DNA of 42,238 nucleotides, from positions 1 through 42,238 of the forward strand of contig JAFXDC010000045.1 in the NCBI GenBank assembly GCA_017516345.1. The letters run 5' to 3'. Numbering within the stretch: the stretch's first letter is position 1; each line of letters begins with the position of its first letter. A model generated the notes under the pieces. That model saw only the letters and a program-made list of their open reading frames with translations, was not told where the DNA came from and did no database searches. The position numbers were made by a program, and so were the translations under genes. The stretch is from Clostridia bacterium. GTDB taxonomy: Bacteria; Bacillota; Clostridia; Christensenellales; QALW01. Shown here piece by piece: positions 7,713 through 39,847 of this stretch.

Positions 7713-9839
7713 TCAATAGTTGTAATCGGGCTTGGAGAATTCGTTATCAAGCCACTCAATACGCTTTCTTACCCAATCCTTATTAAACTCTGCCTGCTCG
7801 TCCACAGTCTTGCACGCACTTACGTAATCAGGCACGGGCCATATTCCATCCTTGAGTATGCTGTATACCTTGAAGTTTTCGTTCCAGGATTTTCTTATAA
7901 GATCTGCCGTATCATCAACAAGATCAAAATAGCTTTCCACTACGTCGTGCATTTCAAACCAACGCTTGCTCATTCTTTCCCTGAAGGATCGGTGCGACAT
8001 AAGATGCTGAAAATAAGTTCCGTATCTCGGCTGCCATCCCGTGTGGTCAAGCAGATCGGGGAATCCGACGTGGTTTCCAAGTCCGCTGTCAAAGTCCCAA
8101 ACGGGTCCCATCTTGAGCTTACCGCCGGTATCCTTATGGAAATATATACTGCTTGTAAACTCACTGTCGCAGTTTTTAAAGAGGGTCTCTACCAAGAACC
8201 AGTCTATAAAGCTGTCAACGTCAATATAGTCCTCATAGCCCACACCACTTATAATGGCCTGCTCTGCCGCTATAAAATAGTCGCGGATATAATCGCGCTG
8301 CTCCTTTGTAAGCTCATCGGCATCGGGATCCTTAAAGGTAACGCACCAGCCCTGAGGGGTCTGGAAATAGTGGTATCCCTTGGTGCCCTCGGCACGGAAA
8401 TCCTTCTCAAGCTCAAGCATCACTCCCACGTCGGGACCGGTCTCGTGCTGATTTAAGGTAAAGCGGGTGCTTGAGATATCCACCTTGTCACCAAGGAGAT
8501 AAAGTCCTCTGTACTCGCCGTTTACAAATACGTCCACAAATCTCATTCTGGGCGCAAAATCTGTGGCATCAAAATGCTTGGCGATCTCATATGCGGTATA
8601 ATTTCGCATCTGGGAAAGGTCAAGATGCGACGCTACCAGTATCCATGAGCGCTCGGGGGTAAGATCGAGGATCTGAGTCTTTTTTTCAAACTTCAGGGTG
8701 TACGGCTTTTTCTCAAGTCCCGAGCTGTACGCACCGCGCACCTTTGCTCCGCAGGCGGTAAGGGGAAGATCCGCTCCGTAGGATGCTCCGTTGCCGCAAA
8801 TGGCAAAGTAGGAGCTTACGTATTCTGTCTTTGAGCTTATTTTCTTCTCGCTGGTTATGCCGACGCATGGCAAGCCCGTGTCAAGCTGACGCACCGCAAT
8901 GGAAAGCTTTATCCTTTTAGTGCCCGACTCCACGTAGATACTGCGGCTGCCCGATATGTCCACCTTGGTCTGACCCGATACCACCGCCGTGTCCCCGACC
9001 GTGACCTTGGCGTTTGAGTCAAACTCCAGCACCGCCTTTTTAAGGTCGATCCCCGGAGGCACAAGGGCGGTAAATCTGCTGCCCTCCTGTTTAAGCTTGA
9101 TGTCGCAGACAAGTCCCTTATTATCCTCCATGGTAAGCTTCATGTTCTCAAGCTTCGGGGTCTTGTTTATGGTTACAAAAAGCTGCTTGGAAAGGTCTAT
9201 CTCCTCCCCGCCGCAGGTTACCTTAAGGTCGGATATATTGGTCTTGCCGTAGGCGTGAACGCTGAAGCTGCTGTATCCCTTCTTGACCGATACGCTTCCC
9301 TTAACGGCAGAGCCCTCGGCGCTTTCAAATACCGTGATGCCACCTATCTCCATGCGCACAGCATCACCCGAGCTCAGAGAGAACTCATATTTGGCATCCT
9401 TGTCAGAATAAAAATATCCGTTAAAAAGATAATACCTTCCGCTTGCAGGCTTTATGGCGTCGGTACCAAGAGTGCCGAGATAGCTTATGTCGTACTTGGC
9501 ATTGCCGAAATCCTTTACAAACTCCTCTGCCTTAAAATAATAGGTGATAAGCTCAAGTCCGTTTACCTTGGCCTTGATGCTGTCCACGTGCTGTGCAAAT
9601 ATCTCGGGCTCCTCGGTCGGAGCAGGCTCCTTCGTGGGCTCATCGGTCACCTCGTCTGTGGGCGCTTCTGTCGCGCCCTCTGTGATCTCCGGGCTCTCGG
9701 TGGGGTCTTGGGTAGCCACGGGCGAGCTCTGCAGGCTTTCATTGTTGGGCGCGCCCCCTATGTAGATGCCCCAGGATATGCATATGATGCCTATCACCAG
9801 GAGCGCCACTGTAAATAAGGTAAATAATTGCTTTTTCAT
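7713..9839 (-). CDS. Membrane-anchored CotH kinase family protein with PA14-like domain
   Basis: The 708-residue protein starts MKKQLFTLFTVALLV, an N-terminal membrane anchor with a short cytoplasmic end. A Pro/Thr/Glu-rich linker (about 35-85) follows, then a PA14-like segment with YLFNGYFYSDKDAKYEF near 135. From about residue 310 comes the CotH domain: KVRGAYSSGLEKKPYTLKF, SHLDLSQMRNYTAYEIAK, VNGEYRGLYLLGDKV and GPVWDFDSGLGN, the last being the conserved metal-binding loop. CotH is an atypical protein kinase in Bacillus spore coats; similar secreted proteins occur widely in gut Clostridia with unknown targets. The ATG at 9839 has GGAG eight bases upstream; a further-upstream start lacks one. 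Monocistronic. Confidence 0.85.
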   Translation of the reverse strand: MKKQLFTLFTVALLVIGIICISWGIYIGGAPNNESLQSSPVATQDPTESPEITEGATEAPTDEVTDEPTKEPAPTEEPEIFAQHVDSIKAKVNGLELITYYFKAEEFVKDFGNAKYDISYLGTLGTDAIKPASGRYYLFNGYFYSDKDAKYEFSLSSGDAVRMEIGGITVFESAEGSAVKGSVSVKKGYSSFSVHAYGKTNISDLKVTCGGEEIDLSKQLFVTINKTPKLENMKLTMEDNKGLVCDIKLKQEGSRFTALVPPGIDLKKAVLEFDSNAKVTVGDTAVVSGQTKVDISGSRSIYVESGTKRIKLSIAVRQLDTGLPCVGITSEKKISSKTEYVSSYFAICGNGASYGADLPLTACGAKVRGAYSSGLEKKPYTLKFEKKTQILDLTPERSWILVASHLDLSQMRNYTAYEIAKHFDATDFAPRMRFVDVFVNGEYRGLYLLGDKVDISSTRFTLNQHETGPDVGVMLELEKDFRAEGTKGYHYFQTPQGWCVTFKDPDADELTKEQRDYIRDYFIAAEQAIISGVGYEDYIDVDSFIDWFLVETLFKNCDSEFTSSIYFHKDTGGKLKMGPVWDFDSGLGNHVGFPDLLDHTGWQPRYGTYFQHLMSHRSFRERMSKRWFEMHDVVESYFDLVDDTADLIRKSWNENFKVYSILKDGIWPVPDYVSACKTVDEQAEFNKDWVRKRIEWLDNEFSKPDYNY

Positions 9840-9889
9840 ATCTGTTCTCCGAAAAAATATTTTCTGTGGAAATTGCAAACCTTTTTACT

Positions 9890-10489: not shown

Positions 10490-11707
10490 ATGAAGTTTAA
10501 TAATGTGGATTTTGATACCTACTTTAAAAATCATCCCGATGCCAACGGATATTTTGGCAAATACGGCGGCGCTTACATTGCTCCCGAGCTTAAGGCGGCC
10601 ATGCAGGAGATAACCGACGCCTACTTTAATATCTGCAAATCCCGCAAGTTCATCTCGGATCTCCGCAGGATCCGCCAAGAGTTTCAGGGCCGTCCAACCC
10701 CCATCTCACATCTTGAGCGTCTGAGCAACAAATACGGCAACGTCCATCTCTACGTTAAGCGCGAGGACCTTAACCATACCGGCGCTCACAAGCTCAACCA
10801 TTGCATGGGCGAGGCTCTGCTGGCCAAGTATATGGGTAAGAAAAAGGTCATCGCCGAAACAGGCGCGGGTCAGCACGGCGTAGCTCTTGCCACCGCCGCG
10901 GCATACTTCGGTCTTGAATGCGACATCTATATGGGCTCTGTGGACATAAAAAAGCAGGCTCCAAACGTTGCAAGAATGAAGATATTGGGCGCAAACGTCA
11001 TCGAGGTCACCGAGGGTCTGCAGACTCTGAAGGAGGCAGTGGACGCCGCATTTGCCGCCTATGCCAATGAGTATAAGGATTGCATCTATTGCATCGGCTC
11101 GGTGCTCGGCCCCCACCCATTCCCCATGATGGTCCGCGACTTCCAGAGCGTTGTGGGCATTGAGGCGCGCGAGCAGTTCCTCTCCATGACGGGCGAGCTT
11201 CCCGATGCCATCGTTGCCTGCGTAGGCGGCGGAAGCAATGCCGCAGGCTTCTTCTCGGGCTTCTTAAACGATCCGGTGGATATCTACGGTGTCGAGCCCC
11301 TGGGCAGAGGCCCCAAGCTCGGCGACCACGCCGCAAGCCTGCAGTACGGCACCGAGGGTGTTATGCACGGCTTTAACAGCATCATGCTCAAGGACGAAAA
11401 CGGCGAGCCCGCACCGGTCTACTCGGTGGCAAGCGGACTTGACTATCCCTCAAGCGGCCCCGAGCACGCATATTTGCGCGATCTTGGCAGGGTAAAATAC
11501 GACGTAATAGACGATGAGGACTCTGTAAACGCCTTCTTTGAGCTCTCTAAGATGGAGGGCATCATCCCCGCAATAGAAAGCTCCCACGCGGTTGCCTACG
11601 GCATCAAGCTTGCCAAGGAAATGGGCAGAGGCTCGGTGCTCATCAACCTCTCGGGCAGAGGCGACAAGGATATGGACTATATCATCGAAAAATACGGCAT
11701 CAGATAA
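10490..11707 (+). CDS. trpB: Tryptophan synthase beta chain, stand-alone
   Basis: PLP enzyme that condenses indole with serine to give tryptophan. At 405 residues it matches the canonical TrpB1 length. HTGAHKLN places the Schiff-base lysine at residue 101, followed by [11 protein letters not shown]; the phosphate-binding GGGSNA loop is near 245 and SGRGDKD near the end. The ATG has AAAGGA upstream. No trpA or other trp biosynthetic gene is adjacent, so salvage of exogenous indole or pairing with a distant trpA are both possible. Expression is probably controlled by the T-box immediately upstream. A strong terminator follows. Confidence 0.95.
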
Positions 11708-11803: not shown

Positions 11804-12466
11804 TCAGCCTTGGGGAGCGGGCTGCACGGGCAATGTTGTGGTCGTAGGCTTGCTCGGCACTGTAACAAGAGCGGCAAAGAAGAAATCAACGTACCATTTG
11901 CCGTCTATTTTTACGCAGGGAACGAAAGCGCCCTCGCCAATACTGTCCTGCTCTCCGTCAGCGTACTTGAATTTACCGCTATACTGTACTATTGCGACCT
12001 CCTTAAACAGCTCGTCTATCTGATCCTCTGTCAAAAAGCCCGCCTCGACGTAATATTCCCTTACGGTATTGATGTACTTCTCGCTTGATATCTCGGTGGA
12101 TATCTTGGTAGTTACCTCAAGCATCTCAACCGTCCGCTTATTCTCGTTGAACTTATCCTCCATATAATCATAGAGCTTGCTCTTCATATCGGCCTTACCC
12201 TCATACTCGACGTCAAAGACCTCAGCCATAGCCTCGTATGAAAACTCCGGTATTAACTCAAAAAACGCGTCGGTATCACAATAAAAGTATGCAGTAATAA
12301 AGTCCTTAGCGACTAGCTCGGGAGTCAGCATTTGGGGCTCTGCCGCATCGGAGCCGTTAAACCAATCATCAAAGGGAAGGTCTATCCCAAGCTCATCACA
12401 AGCGCAAAAGCAAGGAATGAGCGCAAAAATAAAGCAAACAGCCAATATCTTTTTGAACATTTTCAT
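11804..12466 (-). CDS. Uncharacterised lipoprotein
   Basis: A 220-residue protein with a lipoprotein signal peptide (MKMFKKILAVCFIFALIPCF) and lipidation cysteine at about position 23 (FCAC). The mature part is acidic and lysine-rich, with no catalytic motif I recognise. The middle, around FFELIPEFSYEAMAEVFD and KSKLYDYMEDKF, resembles the small alpha+beta lipoproteins common in Clostridia that carry DUF-type stress or anchoring domains; that is only an impression. ATG at 12466 or the next in-frame ATG at 12460 could be the start; both have AGG-containing leaders. It is transcribed from its own promoter between the transporter operon and trpB. Confidence 0.7.
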   Translation of the reverse strand: MKMFKKILAVCFIFALIPCFCACDELGIDLPFDDWFNGSDAAEPQMLTPELVAKDFITAYFYCDTDAFFELIPEFSYEAMAEVFDVEYEGKADMKSKLYDYMEDKFNENKRTVEMLEVTTKISTEISSEKYINTVREYYVEAGFLTEDQIDELFKEVAIVQYSGKFKYADGEQDSIGEGAFVPCVKIDGKWYVDFFFAALVTVPSKPTTTTLPVQPAPQG

Positions 12467-12489
12467 CACCTATTTCCTATATTTTCCTT

Positions 12490-12531: not shown

Positions 12532-13341
12532 TTAATTCAGAAGTGCTCTGTCGCTTGCAAAGGTCTCTCCGCTTGTTTGTGAGAATTTCTCTATAAGCGC
12601 CTCCACCGTAAGCTCCTGCTTCTCCTTGCCCGAAACGTCAAGGATTATTCTGCCCTCGTGCATCATTATAAGGCGGTTGCCGTGCGCGATGGCATCCTTC
12701 ATGTTGTGGGTGACCATAAGTGCGGTCAGATCATTCTCTGCTATGAGCTTATCCGATATCTCCAACACCTTTGCCGCAGTCTTGGGATCAAGGGCGGCGG
12801 TATGCTCATCAAGAAGGAGCAGCTTGGGCTTTTTAAGGGTCGCCATAAGCAGGGTCAGCGCCTGACGCTGTCCGCCCGAAAGCAAGCCCACCTTGGCGGT
12901 CATACGATCCTCAAGACCCAGTCCCAGAACCGACAAAAGCTCGCGAAATTCCTTTCGCTCGGCAGCGGTTATGCTCCAGCCGAGCCCGCGCAGCTTTCCT
13001 CTGCGGGCGGCAAGAGCAAGATTCTCCTCTATCTGCATATTGGATGCCGTACCCGTCATGGGATCCTGAAATACCCTTCCGATATATTTTGCACGCTTGT
13101 GCTCGGGAAGCTTGGTTATGTCTACCGAGTCTATCATGATGCTTCCGCGGTCAATGTGAAATACTCCCGCAGTTGCGTTCAGCATGGTGGATTTTCCCGC
13201 ACCGTTGCCACCGATGACCGTTACGAAATCTCCCGGGGCAAGGTCAATGCTAAGGTCGTTAAGGGCGATCTTTTCATTCACGGTACCCGGATAGAATGCC
13301 TTGGTAACGTTTTTTAAAGAAAGCATTGGCTTATCCGACAT
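12532..13341 (-). CDS. ABC transporter ATP-binding protein (TrpXYZ/COG1101 type)
   Basis: Cytoplasmic ATPase of an amino-acid-type importer; 269 residues from the start chosen. Walker A is GGNGAGKST near residue 40, the ABC signature LLSGGQRQAL near 150, Walker B LLLLDEHTAALD near 172 and the switch histidine in MVTHN near 205. The frame is open 17 codons further upstream, but MSDKPMLSL at 13341 is preceded by GGAGGAGGGATGAT and abuts the permease stop codon. It is the last gene of the T-box-controlled operon. No terminator was noticed between it and the next lipoprotein promoter. Confidence 0.88.
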   Translation of the reverse strand: MSDKPMLSLKNVTKAFYPGTVNEKIALNDLSIDLAPGDFVTVIGGNGAGKSTMLNATAGVFHIDRGSIMIDSVDITKLPEHKRAKYIGRVFQDPMTGTASNMQIEENLALAARRGKLRGLGWSITAAERKEFRELLSVLGLGLEDRMTAKVGLLSGGQRQALTLLMATLKKPKLLLLDEHTAALDPKTAAKVLEISDKLIAENDLTALMVTHNMKDAIAHGNRLIMMHEGRIILDVSGKEKQELTVEALIEKFSQTSGETFASDRALLN

Positions 13342-13342
13342 A

Positions 13343-14299
13343 TCATCCCTCCTCCTTTTTTGCGTCTTTAACGTGCTGATCCCTTTTATCAAGGGAGGAT
13401 CTTTTGCCTATCTTATTGAAAAATCCCGTTAAGCAAAGCGCCGCTATGACCACCACTGCGGTCATTATCTTAAGGTCGGTGGAGGGCATGCCCGAGAAGA
13501 TAACAAGGGCGACCACCACTCTGTAGATCACAGACCCCACCACTATGCCCGTAAGCTTGAGCATAAAATTCTTTGCCTTGGAGAATATCGCCTCTCCGAT
13601 TATGATGGATGCAAGTCCTATAACTATCGCGCCAACACCCATGTTTACGTCGGAATATCCCTGATATTGGCATAAAAGTGAGCCCGACATGGCGATAAGT
13701 CCGTTTGAGAGAGCAAGTCCGATTATCTTGGTAAGGTCGGTATCTATTCCCTGCGCACGGCACATTTTTTCATTGTTGCCCGTTGCTCTGATGGAGGAGC
13801 CTATCTCGGTGCCGAAGAACAGATATAAAAGTCCTATCACCGCAACGCATATCACCACTCCCAGCAGTATCGCCGCACTCATCTTATCCATACCCATAAG
13901 GGCGCCCACCTTGGTGTACAGCACGTTTGAGCTGAATTTAAGCAGGGAAAGGTTTGCCGTTCCCTGAGTCCCCGTGGCAAGGCTCATAATATGAATGTTG
14001 ATGGAATACAGACTTATCATGGTAAGTATACCCGCAAGAATGGGGGGTATCTTAAGCTTGGTATGGAGCACACCCGTAATTATTCCCGCAATACAGCCCG
14101 CAACAAAAGCCACGAGCACCGCAAGCACGGGATGCACCTCCTGCCAGATAAGCAATGCCGCAACCGATGCTCCGAGGGTGATGCACCCCTCGCACGTCAG
14201 GTCGGCAAAGTCAAGAATGCGGTATGAGATATACACGCCAAGGGCAAGTATCGCCCAGATAAGTCCCTGAGACGCGCCCGAAATCAAAATGTCTACCAT
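13343..14299 (-). CDS. ABC transporter permease (TrpXYZ/COG4120 type)
   Basis: A 318-residue polytopic membrane protein with eight or nine hydrophobic segments. It begins MVDILISGASQGLIWAILAL with the conserved ISYRILDFADLTCEG block, and has IGSSIRATGNNEKMCRAQGI in the cytoplasmic coupling region around residue 170. It belongs to the branched-chain/simple-sugar permease superfamily. It sits between the solute-binding protein (88 bp upstream) and the ATPase (stop and next start one base apart). Substrate is inferred from the leader and from the family, in which tryptophan transporters such as streptococcal TrpXYZ are known. Confidence 0.88.
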   Translation of the reverse strand: MVDILISGASQGLIWAILALGVYISYRILDFADLTCEGCITLGASVAALLIWQEVHPVLAVLVAFVAGCIAGIITGVLHTKLKIPPILAGILTMISLYSINIHIMSLATGTQGTANLSLLKFSSNVLYTKVGALMGMDKMSAAILLGVVICVAVIGLLYLFFGTEIGSSIRATGNNEKMCRAQGIDTDLTKIIGLALSNGLIAMSGSLLCQYQGYSDVNMGVGAIVIGLASIIIGEAIFSKAKNFMLKLTGIVVGSVIYRVVVALVIFSGMPSTDLKIMTAVVVIAALCLTGFFNKIGKRSSLDKRDQHVKDAKKEEG

Positions 14300-14387: not shown

Positions 14388-15431
14388 TTATTTTCCGCTG
14401 TTAAGGGAATGAACGGTTGCCGCACCGTTTGCAAGCACGTTGTCGGTGGGGATGTAGATGGCATCCACGCCTGCCGCCTTAAGGGAAATAAATGCCGACT
14501 GGATATCGTTGATGTCGCCAATGCCCTTTTCAACAAAGCTGTATCCCTTTGCCTCGCACTCCGCCTTGGCAAGACCGATCTGGAATACCGAGTTGGTCTC
14601 TGCGGAGGTGTAAAGAAGTCCGATCTTGATGTCATCCTTGCCAAGAAGCTCGCCGATAAGGTCTATCTGCATGGCAACGGGGTTGATGTCGGATACGCCG
14701 CTTACGTTGCCGCCCGGAACCTCCATGGACTCCACAAGGCCTGCATCAACAGGATTGGTGACCGCATTAAACAGAACCGGGATCTTGCTCTCTGCGGTAG
14801 CCGCCGCGGCTGCCTGAGAGGAGGAGGTGGCAATGGTATAAATAAGATCCACCTTCTGGGTCACAAAGCTCTCTGCAATGGTAACGTTGTTGGACTGCTC
14901 GTTGCTTGCATTCTTGTCCTCTATCTTTACCTTCTTGCCTGCGGCATCCATGCGAACGGAAAGCTGATCCTGGAAGCCCTCGTTGGCCTGGTCAAGGGCA
15001 ACGTGCTGTAAAAGCTGCAGAATGCCTACCGTAAAGTCGGCACCCTCTGTTACGATGGCAGACTCAACACGCTCAACCTTCTTACTGCCGCTCGCGGTGG
15101 CCCTTTGGGAGACCGATTCGGGAATGGTAAAGCCTATCTGCTCTGCTACCTCCTGATTTACAGAAAGCGCAGGGTTGGGATCCATCTGTACAGCCATGGT
15201 GGAAACGTCCGCACCGTCAAGGAGAATGTCTGCCGCCATATTGCCCGCCTTAACGCCAAGGCTGTAGTAGTCAACTCCGTAAGTGGCTACGCCCGCAAGG
15301 TCATTCATTCCGGTCTCACCGCATACTATTGGGATGTTATATCCCGCGCTCTGTCCGTCGCATCCCGCAAAGGCCATAACGCCCAGCATCATCATAATTG
15401 CCATTATCAGGCTTAAGATCTTCTTTTTCAT
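14388..15431 (-). CDS. Circularly permuted TrpX-family (COG2984) ABC substrate-binding lipoprotein
   Basis: Type I periplasmic-binding-fold receptor of the importer; 347 residues with signal peptide and lipidation Cys24 (AFAGC). The order is abnormal. Residues 32-107, from NIPIVCGETG to GFTIPESV, match what is normally the family's C-terminus. A linker (108-132) follows, then 133-347, starting FTVGILQLLQHVALDQA, which is the usual beginning of the mature protein, through IATSSSQAAAAA, VTNPVDAGLV and LYTSAETNSV, to the final DAIYIPTDNVLANGAATVHSLNSGK. In ordinary members that last segment runs straight into an IPVxxGE-like block; here it ends in TAA and the missing block is at the N-terminus. 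Nothing is lost overall, so the protein is probably functional. It is first in its operon, behind a T-box. Confidence 0.9.
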   Translation of the reverse strand: MKKKILSLIMAIMMMLGVMAFAGCDGQSAGYNIPIVCGETGMNDLAGVATYGVDYYSLGVKAGNMAADILLDGADVSTMAVQMDPNPALSVNQEVAEQIGFTIPESVSQRATASGSKKVERVESAIVTEGADFTVGILQLLQHVALDQANEGFQDQLSVRMDAAGKKVKIEDKNASNEQSNNVTIAESFVTQKVDLIYTIATSSSQAAAAATAESKIPVLFNAVTNPVDAGLVESMEVPGGNVSGVSDINPVAMQIDLIGELLGKDDIKIGLLYTSAETNSVFQIGLAKAECEAKGYSFVEKGIGDINDIQSAFISLKAAGVDAIYIPTDNVLANGAATVHSLNSGK

Positions 15432-15498: not shown

Positions 15499-15827
15499 AA
15501 AAAAGCTCTGCACTAAGCATGGTTATGCTTAATGCAGAGACGAAATGATCGCGTTACCACTCTGCTTTGCCCCCGCCTTACGGCAAGAGGCCTCTATGGG
15601 CATTGAATATTCAATGTCTTCCGATATCACGGTCGAACCCGTCGCGGCACCTGAGGCTCGCGAAGCTCCCGAAGTGTATTTCATTGCACCGCCGCCGTTA
15701 CCTCGCACCAACCGATAACTCTCTTAAGAGCTCTTGCGCAACTACTTATTTTCGATCATAGCCTTTATACTACTGTTCTACTATTTTAAAAGGATCCGCC
15801 AAACGCTTTACCTTGCTACTGTATTAC
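15499..15827 (-). promoter_or_regulatory. T-box leader of the ABC importer operon (probable tRNA-Tyr sensor)
   Basis: On the minus strand the T-box core GTGGTAACGCGATC lies at 15547-15560. It is followed by a 15-bp terminator stem CTCTGCATTAAGCAT/ATGCTTAGTGCAGAG (15506-15539) and a run of seven U. Stem I helices CGAA/TTCG and GTTGC/GCAAT enclose the specifier loop: 5' side AATAAGTA (AGUA loop-E motif), 3' side GAAATACAC. UAC (15676-15678), two bases above the lower helix, is the best specifier candidate (tyrosine); AUA or ACA are alternatives. No UGG occupies this position. The conserved apical GGTTGGTGCGAGG is present. Confidence 0.88.
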
Positions 15828-37360: not shown

Positions 37361-39847
37361 TTATGCTTTTTCAAGGGTGAGTGTGCACTCATCACCGCAG
37401 AGCTCCACGTTAAAGGTGAGCTCCCAGCCGTCGTCCGCAAGGAATGCCTGCTTGAAATCACTTCGGTTTTGGCTCTGGTCAAGGCAGAATTGCTTATCGC
37501 CCTGCTTAACAAGCAGCTTATAGCCATAGGGTGAGGACAGTCCGCTGAAGGTGACCGCGGCGTAAGAAAGTCCACCAAAAAGGCGTAAGACCGCCCTGTC
37601 GCGGGCACATTTGACCTTTACGGGATAATCTCTTACCACCTCTCCCTCAACTGCCTCGGGGGTTATTTTGCCCACCGTTGCATAGCGATGAGCAAGGCGC
37701 CAGGTGTCAAATTCATCCTCCGGGAAGGAGCGCAGTATCCGGCTGGTACCGTAATAATAATGCTTTTTAATGGGCAGATTTATATACTCCACGCACCCCG
37801 AAATACGGCTTCCCGCCGCTATTTTTCCGCTTTCAAGGCACAGCTCCATAGCAATGCAGGGAACGTTGAAATCCATTGTTCTGTAAAGGCTCACCCTAGG
37901 CTTTTCCACCCTTTTACCGTTGACCTCCCCATCAAATGAGCGCAACAGCAGCGCTCTGTTTGCCACGGGGCCGAACTTGCAATTGTTTGTATTGGTCATC
38001 CTTGCGCCAAGGCAGGCAAGAAACAGTCCCTCGCCCGGCACGGTTATGGGGATCTGCCTACCCCCTACGTATCCTGCCTCACCCAAGGGGGCATCAAACT
38101 CGCCGCTATAGGTCTTGCCTTCAAGCTCAAAGGAGATGGGACCGTCGTTATTACCTATACAGATTCGAGGATAATCGTTATCGTTATAATGATCCGCACC
38201 AAGCTGATACAGCACAAAACGGGAGTAGTCCACATCCCTTTTAAAGGTATATTCAAAGCTGTGGATGGCGCGTGAGCAGTCGTCGGTGCGTGGCAAGAAG
38301 GCGGTAAAGCGGCAGTCCACGGCATCATCGCCCGTGGTGGCGGTATGTATCACCTGACAGAGATTCGGGCCCTGATTTCTGAAATACGATCGCACGTTTT
38401 TAAGGGGTATGCTCTGCCCCTCCTTTTGGCACAAAATAAAGTTTCCGCCGCCGTTACAGCCCGTCCATTGATATTTTTTGGAGTTTATATCGTTTTTGGT
38501 ATACACGGTCAGAGGCCTGATATCGTCTATAAAGGCTCTGCCGTGTGAGGTCTCGGCATCGTAGCAGAAGGCCTCGCCGAAGGAGCCTATTGCCGAGCTT
38601 TCCCATAGCTGATATGCGCCGCCCCATCCCGCAAGGCAAAGCTGAGAATGGCTTGCTGACCAAATGGTTCCCCAGGTGGCAAACAGACAGTTATACTCAA
38701 GCTCCACCCTTTCGTGTGCCCTTACGGGGATATTACACCAGCCGTGAAGCCACGGGCCCTCAAGATGGCGGCGCGGATCGTTTGGTGCGGCGTAGAAAAC
38801 GTCGTCGGAGCGGGAGGCATCGGAGTGCATGCGGTGCCAATTCTTGCTCAGCTGTACCCTTATGCCGCAGGGCTCGCCGCCAACCCTACGCAATATGGGA
38901 CACACTCCGCTTGTGGAGAAGCCCTTATCCTTATAGAAGCATACGGGCAAAAGAACGTCGGTATCGGTGGGGTTTTCAAGGGTCACAAGCACTCGCTCAA
39001 AATGTCTGCGATGCTCGGGGAGATTAAAATCAAGATATCCGTTAAAGCTCTCATCGTATCCTCCTCCCCTTGATGAGCACGGAGCAATGCCGTCGGTGAC
39101 TATGCGCACGCATCTGCCTTGAGCGCTACTGTTAAGCAGAGCTCCGCTATTCATCTCGCGGGCGGTAAGCCTTATCCGCTTGATGGCGTCGTACTCCTCC
39201 GCTTTGCTTGCAGGCAGAAGATCTATGGAAAATCCGCCGTTAAAGGCATCCCTTTTAAGAAGCTGCGGCTCTCCTACAAGGGTGAGCACTCCGTCCTGCC
39301 ATTGGGGTGTGCAGCCGTCAAACGCCACCGTCATTTGGTCAAAATACACCTTGTCACGTGTTATCCGCTCAAGCTTAAAGGGAAGCTTTAGGCTAAGAGA
39401 CATGGCAAAGCCCTCTATATCCCTTAGCGAATGCGCACTGAGAGAAACGGTGCAAAAGCGCGGCATTGCGGATATCTCCATCCTACCCTTGATGCTCAAG
39501 CCCTCAAAGGTATAATACATAACGTCCATACTGCAGCGGCACGAGCCCATCTCCAGTATCCTGCTGTGCGCGCCCCACATATCTATCTGCTCAAGAGCCG
39601 TGCATTTGTGCTCTTTTCCGTTTACAAGTGCACCTACAGCGCTTGAGATATCGGGCAAGGCGTCTATCTCGGCATTGTCGCTTTCCGATGCCGTCTCCTC
39701 GGTGGACGGTGGGAGATTGCCGAATTTTTTAAGCGAGCCACTCAAATTATCATAAGCCATGCCGTAGCGCGAAGCACGAAAATACATATTGTGACTTCCT
39801 TTATTAAATCCGTCACGCCACCACATGAAGACAAAATCCTTATTCAT
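37361..39847 (-). CDS. Large cytoplasmic protein of unknown family (828 aa)
   Basis: The protein starts MNKDFVFMWWRDGFNKGS with GAGGTG upstream and has no signal peptide or membrane helix. It looks beta-rich, with many Trp/Tyr/Gly patches (HLEGPWLHGWCNIPV near 370, FATWGTIWSASHSQLCLAGWGG near 405, QWTGCNGGGNF near 470) and no motif I can assign. The C-terminus resembles a small beta-sandwich (SPYGYKLLVKQGDKQFC). Trp-rich composition and the shared promoter sites with two sugar-binding lipoproteins suggest a carbohydrate-related job, perhaps a hydrolase or lyase, but this is inference. Monocistronic, between two terminators. Confidence 0.75.
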   Translation of the reverse strand: MNKDFVFMWWRDGFNKGSHNMYFRASRYGMAYDNLSGSLKKFGNLPPSTEETASESDNAEIDALPDISSAVGALVNGKEHKCTALEQIDMWGAHSRILEMGSCRCSMDVMYYTFEGLSIKGRMEISAMPRFCTVSLSAHSLRDIEGFAMSLSLKLPFKLERITRDKVYFDQMTVAFDGCTPQWQDGVLTLVGEPQLLKRDAFNGGFSIDLLPASKAEEYDAIKRIRLTAREMNSGALLNSSAQGRCVRIVTDGIAPCSSRGGGYDESFNGYLDFNLPEHRRHFERVLVTLENPTDTDVLLPVCFYKDKGFSTSGVCPILRRVGGEPCGIRVQLSKNWHRMHSDASRSDDVFYAAPNDPRRHLEGPWLHGWCNIPVRAHERVELEYNCLFATWGTIWSASHSQLCLAGWGGAYQLWESSAIGSFGEAFCYDAETSHGRAFIDDIRPLTVYTKNDINSKKYQWTGCNGGGNFILCQKEGQSIPLKNVRSYFRNQGPNLCQVIHTATTGDDAVDCRFTAFLPRTDDCSRAIHSFEYTFKRDVDYSRFVLYQLGADHYNDNDYPRICIGNNDGPISFELEGKTYSGEFDAPLGEAGYVGGRQIPITVPGEGLFLACLGARMTNTNNCKFGPVANRALLLRSFDGEVNGKRVEKPRVSLYRTMDFNVPCIAMELCLESGKIAAGSRISGCVEYINLPIKKHYYYGTSRILRSFPEDEFDTWRLAHRYATVGKITPEAVEGEVVRDYPVKVKCARDRAVLRLFGGLSYAAVTFSGLSSPYGYKLLVKQGDKQFCLDQSQNRSDFKQAFLADDGWELTFNVELCGDECTLTLEKA

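Follow-up and report, generated by a model that had tools for sequence, protein, structure and literature searches.

The substrate-binding proteins (SBPs) of the TrpX family (COG2984, PF04392), among them SP1069 of S. pneumoniae (3LFT), VC_1101 of V. cholerae (3LKV) and CD0873 of C. difficile (6HNI), belong to importers with a permease and an ATPase as partners, and trpX of S. suis is under T-box control (PMC9382623). In CD0873, a tyrosine-binding lipoprotein, the hydroxyl of tyrosine is held by Glu263 and by a water molecule bound to Val235 and Pro236. Tyr279 of this protein shuts out tryptophan, while the tryptophan-binding SP1069 admits it with Gln284 at that position (PMC6816091). A natural circular permutation of a type I SBP has been published for TpMglB-2 (Tp0684) of Treponema pallidum, a glucose-binding protein of another subfamily that was designated 'Type Ic / Cluster Bc' (PMC4990184; 5JX2, 6BGC).

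The window (the whole stretch of 42,238 nucleotides analysed here) encodes a TrpX-family SBP in which the order of the segments is reversed. Translation of the open reading frame revealed a FAGC lipobox with Cys24, followed by residues 32-106 (NIPIVCGETG...GFTIPES), a linker, the sequence FTVGILQLLQHVALDQ... and termination at VHSLNSGK. The order is thus signal peptide, family C-terminal segment (B), linker and family N-terminal segment (A), the reverse of that in the family. Residues 32-107 had been taken as the C-terminal segment of the family in the preliminary description, and the alignment of residues 32-106 to 6hni 235-308 agrees with it. In phmmer comparison of the unrotated protein with PDB sequences, residues 134-340 matched 6hni 25-227 and residues 32-106 matched 6hni 235-308, giving two out-of-order stretches. 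The same two blocks were obtained by BLAST with close normal-order relatives, each at 48-57% identity (E values of 1e-58 to 1e-76 and 1e-17 to 1e-28), and matches of PF04392 and NF041285 to the unrotated protein were likewise in reversed order. Coordinates are collected in Table 1.

Table 1. Coordinates of the permuted gene, its segments and ligand-site residues, and the surrounding operon in the window
Feature	Position	Strand	Basis
Permuted substrate-binding lipoprotein, 347 aa	14388..15431	(-)	Translation; profile, PDB and BLAST comparisons
Lipoprotein signal peptide to lipobox Cys24 (FAGC)	15360..15431	(-)	Sequence
Segment B, residues 32-112, family C-terminal segment at the N-terminus	15096..15338	(-)	Alignment to 6hni 235-308; B-only tree, 0.985
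New linker, residues 113-132, old C-terminus to old N-terminus	15036..15095	(-)	Conserved length and motif
Segment A, residues 133-347, family N-terminal segment at the C-terminus	14391..15035	(-)	Alignment to 6hni 25-227; PF04392 2-205
Glu39, equivalent of CD0873 Glu263 (tyrosine OH contact)	15315..15317	(-)	6hni alignment and PMC6816091; invariant in 13/13 permuted proteins
Tyr55, equivalent of CD0873 Tyr279 (Gln284 in SP1069)	15267..15269	(-)	6hni alignment and PMC6816091; invariant
T-box leader (RF00230), upstream of the operon	15533..15768	(-)	cmscan, 98.9 bits (gathering cutoff 93)
Putative T-box specifier, read as UAC (Tyr) in GAA-A-UAC-A	15676..15678	(-)	Sequence and Rfam alignment
Permease (PF02653)	13343..14299	(-)	Pfam; clade of 16 permuted-operon permeases, support 0.999
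ATPase (PF00005)	12532..13392	(-)	Pfam; 66-78% identity in other permuted operons

When the end of the protein was joined to residue 32, the two stretches merged into one. With PF04392 (cutoff 25.9 bits), the native protein scored 183.9 bits and the rotated one 199.8 bits over a single stretch (2-290/293). Since PF04392 matches both halves, the protein belongs to this family by sequence. With NF041285 (TrpX), the score rose from 237.6 bits in two stretches to 253.1 bits in a single stretch (29-321/322), both below the curated cutoff of 390 bits, so that by the NCBI rule the protein is a homologue and not a TrpX equivalog. Against 6hni, 168 bits were obtained after rotation and 150 before, with no gap at the join. 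With the rotated protein, the nearest normal-order relative (L031) aligned in a single block of 302 columns (56% identity, 316 bits), compared to 228 + 101 bits with the native one. No residues are missing at the rotated join. The reversed order is real and exact, and chance is excluded. These results bear out the circular permutation with nothing lost that had been proposed in the preliminary description, and show homology to the TrpX/COG2984/PF04392 SBPs over the full length after rotation. As its segment order is the reverse of the linear order normal for TrpX/PF04392 (COG2984), the window protein represents a permuted branch of the family, distinguished by the swapped segments and by an extra conserved linker. 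This linker, earlier put at 25 residues, has about 20-25, the figure varying with the end point assigned to the C-terminal tail. The spacing from FTIP to VGILQL is 34-35 residues in 13/13 permuted proteins and a linker motif is recognisable; the conserved length indicates that the linker itself is constrained.

The same arrangement was found in other genomes, as the preliminary description had suggested looking for. A pattern scan of contigs gave three permuted loci besides that of the window, from genomes of sheep rectum, roe deer cecum and water deer rectum; colinear matches span residues 3-347 at L051 and run from residues 16 and 19 to 347 at L052 and L053. Searches of whole sampled genomes extended the set to at least 17 gut bacterial genomes, namely 15 of the 395 genomes sampled from one bacterial family, G397 and the window genome. 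The copies in the 16 other genomes are 64-77% identical to the window protein in single colinear matches, mostly over residues 3-346, and read out as signal peptide, B, linker, A and stop. Pattern matching identifies a lipobox in 10 of the 13 permuted proteins. No other permuted copy was found among the sampled genomes of the order (396) and class (391) of the window genome. The whole protein was without a match in viral contigs, where the profile search returned only a distant relative. Plasmids likewise contained only distant relatives, none above 60% identity; the two that cover most of the query split into two separate matches, the pattern that a normal-order protein would give.

An artefact of assembly or binning, either by mis-joining of tandem SBP genes or by a chimeric contig, could be considered as the window genome is fragmented and 70.5% complete, and tandem SBP copies occur in relatives. 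In the 16 other genomes the segments recur in this order and in frame, with a linker of equal length and the stop at the corresponding place, which speaks against it, as does the PhoH-HD-YbeY-CDD flank of the window, which matches that of a genome of the same genus (G001) at 86, 63, 51 and 61% identity. An assembly error, named earlier as a finding that would overturn the permutation, is therefore extremely improbable.

Conservation of the permuted protein was also analysed with respect to function. Among four permuted copies, pairwise dN was about 0.2 and pairwise dS at least about 2, giving dN/dS of about 0.1 with third positions near saturation, from which purifying selection on the permuted protein follows. 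Sixteen of the 17 copies are intact. The exception (G1032, L124) carries a frame change near residue 297 that interrupts the gene and may be real decay or a sequencing error. This broken copy would fit a decaying fusion gene, from which a protein is made that no longer supports transport. Such decay is very improbable in view of the low dN/dS, the invariant ligand-site residues (see below), the permease and ATPase genes that are intact in 13/13 copies examined, and the failure to find a second SBP gene beside the operons.

In all 13 permuted copies examined with wide flanks, the SBP gene is followed by those for a permease (PF02653) and then an ATPase (PF00005), the same partners as those of TrpX-family importers, and no second SBP gene was detected beside these operons. 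The intact operon noted in the preliminary description was confirmed at the window by Pfam matches to both transport genes and by a T-box leader scoring above the Rfam cutoff. T-boxes above this cutoff are also present at L051, L053, L113 and L120, and are absent at some permuted loci. With the specifier position taken by eye from the Rfam alignment, the putative specifier reads UAC (Tyr) at the window, L053, L112, L113 and L115, resembles UUC at L051 and is not clearly UAC at L120. A trpB gene (10490-11707, (+); TIGR00263 above cutoff) adjoins the importer operon in the window, and a TrpB-like gene lies downstream of the permuted operon in L052. Just downstream of the window operon is a predicted lipoprotein of 221 aa (11804-12469, (-)) with no Pfam match. 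Elsewhere in the window are a CotH kinase-family protein (PF08757) of 721 aa (7713-9878, (-)) and an open reading frame of 828 aa (37361-39847, (-)) with no Pfam match at E 1e-5.

Residues of the ligand site were compared with those of CD0873, an unpermuted protein, through the 6hni alignment, in which a numbering offset of 21 was checked on Val235-Pro236. Glu263 and Tyr279 of CD0873 correspond to Glu39 and Tyr55 of the window protein, and Val235-Pro236 align with Ile327-Pro328. None of these four residues varies among the 13 permuted proteins compared. As the site residues are located in both segments, A and B must come together to form the ligand site. The CD0873-like pair E39 and Y55 predicts specificity for tyrosine. 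The UAC triplet in most of the readable T-box specifiers, along with the invariant equivalents of Glu263 and Tyr279, suggests that the ligand is probably tyrosine, more likely than tryptophan. Thus, the description of the system as a TrpX-type importer stands for the family and the operon, and less so for tryptophan as the ligand. Tryptophan, phenylalanine or another aromatic compound is a less likely ligand: the best family model is TrpX, a trpB gene lies next to the window operon and a TrpB-like gene is present in L052, and the L051 T-box may read UUC, against the UAC specifier at five loci and the invariance of the residues equivalent to those of the tyrosine-specific CD0873.

AlphaFold2 was run with four permuted sequences as input, and two models were taken from these runs. 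Their confidence was moderate (mean pLDDT 73.6 and 74.1; pTM 0.67 and 0.73), and each run gave no more than one or two well-folded models out of five. TrpX-family crystal structures align only with model residues 131-345 (about 202-208 residues; 33-38% identity for the structurally aligned A segment), a partial alignment that is expected, as a sequential match cannot run in full through segments in reversed order. TpMglB-2 (6bgc, 6bgd, 5jx2) is the solved protein that aligns in order over both segments of the models, covering model residues 31-345/346 with 240-254 residues, Z scores of 13.3-15.4, rmsd of 4.2-5.0 and 12-17% identity. Many sugar-binding proteins also align with the models over about residues 30-270; as the two lobes of the type I fold are alike, such sequential matches may pair non-equivalent lobes. 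The structural result thus supports no more than a type I-like fold containing an additional crossover.

The window protein resembles TpMglB-2 in being a tethered type I SBP that is naturally permuted and would need a fourth crossover between the domains. The cut sites are different. In TpMglB-2, the last 70-100 residues form the first three strands of the N-lobe, whereas the last ~215 residues of the window protein are the N-terminal part of the family, so that the shift of three N-lobe strands to the C-terminus characteristic of Type Ic / Cluster Bc is not seen here. The permuted part of TpMglB-2 has lost clear sequence similarity, while that of the window protein is 48-57% identical to normal relatives. 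Neither 5JX2 nor 6BGC was among the profile matches at E<=10. No permuted TrpX-family protein was found in the open-licence literature. The preliminary description had stated that no permuted member of the family was known; within the literature searched this is true of the TrpX family, the wider type I/cluster B fold having TpMglB-2 (PMC4990184). As far as could be searched, the window protein is the second natural permutation found for the type I fold and the first in the TrpX family. TpMglB-2 also bears on a possible domain-swapped oligomer, in which each lipoprotein would lend its segment B to the segment A of a neighbour. A linker of 20-25 residues could allow swapping, and the evolution of the type I fold is thought to include duplication and domain swapping (PMC9815098). 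TpMglB-2, which also has such a fourth crossover, is a monomer (PMC4990184), and in the moderate-confidence models of the monomer both segments belong to a single type I-like fold. An exchange of segments between neighbours is therefore improbable.

Phylogenetic trees were used to address the origin of the permuted form. The 13 permuted proteins form one clade with A and B combined (support 1.0), with A (0.998) and with B (0.985), nested among normal-order proteins of the order to which the window genome belongs, and the sister group has normal order. The permeases of 16 permuted operons also form one clade (support 0.999). There was thus a single permutation event. In the same-genus genome G001, the PhoH-HD-YbeY-CDD genes are present and the operon is absent after CDD; none of the other genomes with a permuted copy yielded the HD gene that adjoins the window operon. 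The order sample of G396 and that of the window have no genome in common. The simplest reading is that the window lineage probably acquired the permuted operon horizontally.

G039, G243, G302, G078 and an S. suis plasmid carry tandem normal-order SBP genes ahead of the permease, the pair in G039 sharing 62% identity. Loci with such tandem genes before one permease are L110, L048, L044, L030 and L125, the S. suis plasmid pair included. These pairs in several relatives make it plausible that an SBP gene was duplicated, that the copies fused in frame and that the outer parts were lost to give the permuted gene. The tandem duplication with partial loss of both copies that had been suggested earlier thus remains plausible, whereas its intermediate was not found: no fused, multi-copy (ABAB, BAB) or partly degraded duplication was seen among the open reading frames of the loci analysed.

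Taken together, the window protein is very likely a functional, naturally circularly permuted SBP lipoprotein, of single origin, of an ABC importer for an aromatic amino acid, most likely tyrosine. Going by the general topology of type I proteins, the chain would begin just before the strand IPIVCGE in domain 2, pass to domain 1 and return, after which the conserved linker would serve as the fourth inter-domain crossover and the chain would then provide the usual N-terminal half. Folding would unite the segments, with Glu39 and Tyr55 of B and the I327-P328 region of A rebuilding the ligand cleft. The lipid anchor would lie beside domain 2 and not beside domain 1 as in the TrpX family, and the C-terminus would fall at the domain 2 surface loop of normal proteins. 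Scarcity of charged tRNA-Tyr would allow transcription of the operon through the T-box, leading to import of tyrosine. The permuted gene arose once, probably when a tandem SBP pair fused and lost its outer parts, and would later have passed between bacterial orders.

The origin of this permutation is open to testing, with halves ~50-57% identical to normal relatives, at least 17 members, a known normal-order sister and surviving tandem pairs. Its effects on hinge motion, lipid tethering and permease docking are directly testable as well. For biosensor engineering, it provides a naturally tolerated cut site adjoining the ligand cleft of an aromatic amino acid SBP. The permuted family thus presents a natural experiment on how far the order of a protein can be rewired without loss of function.
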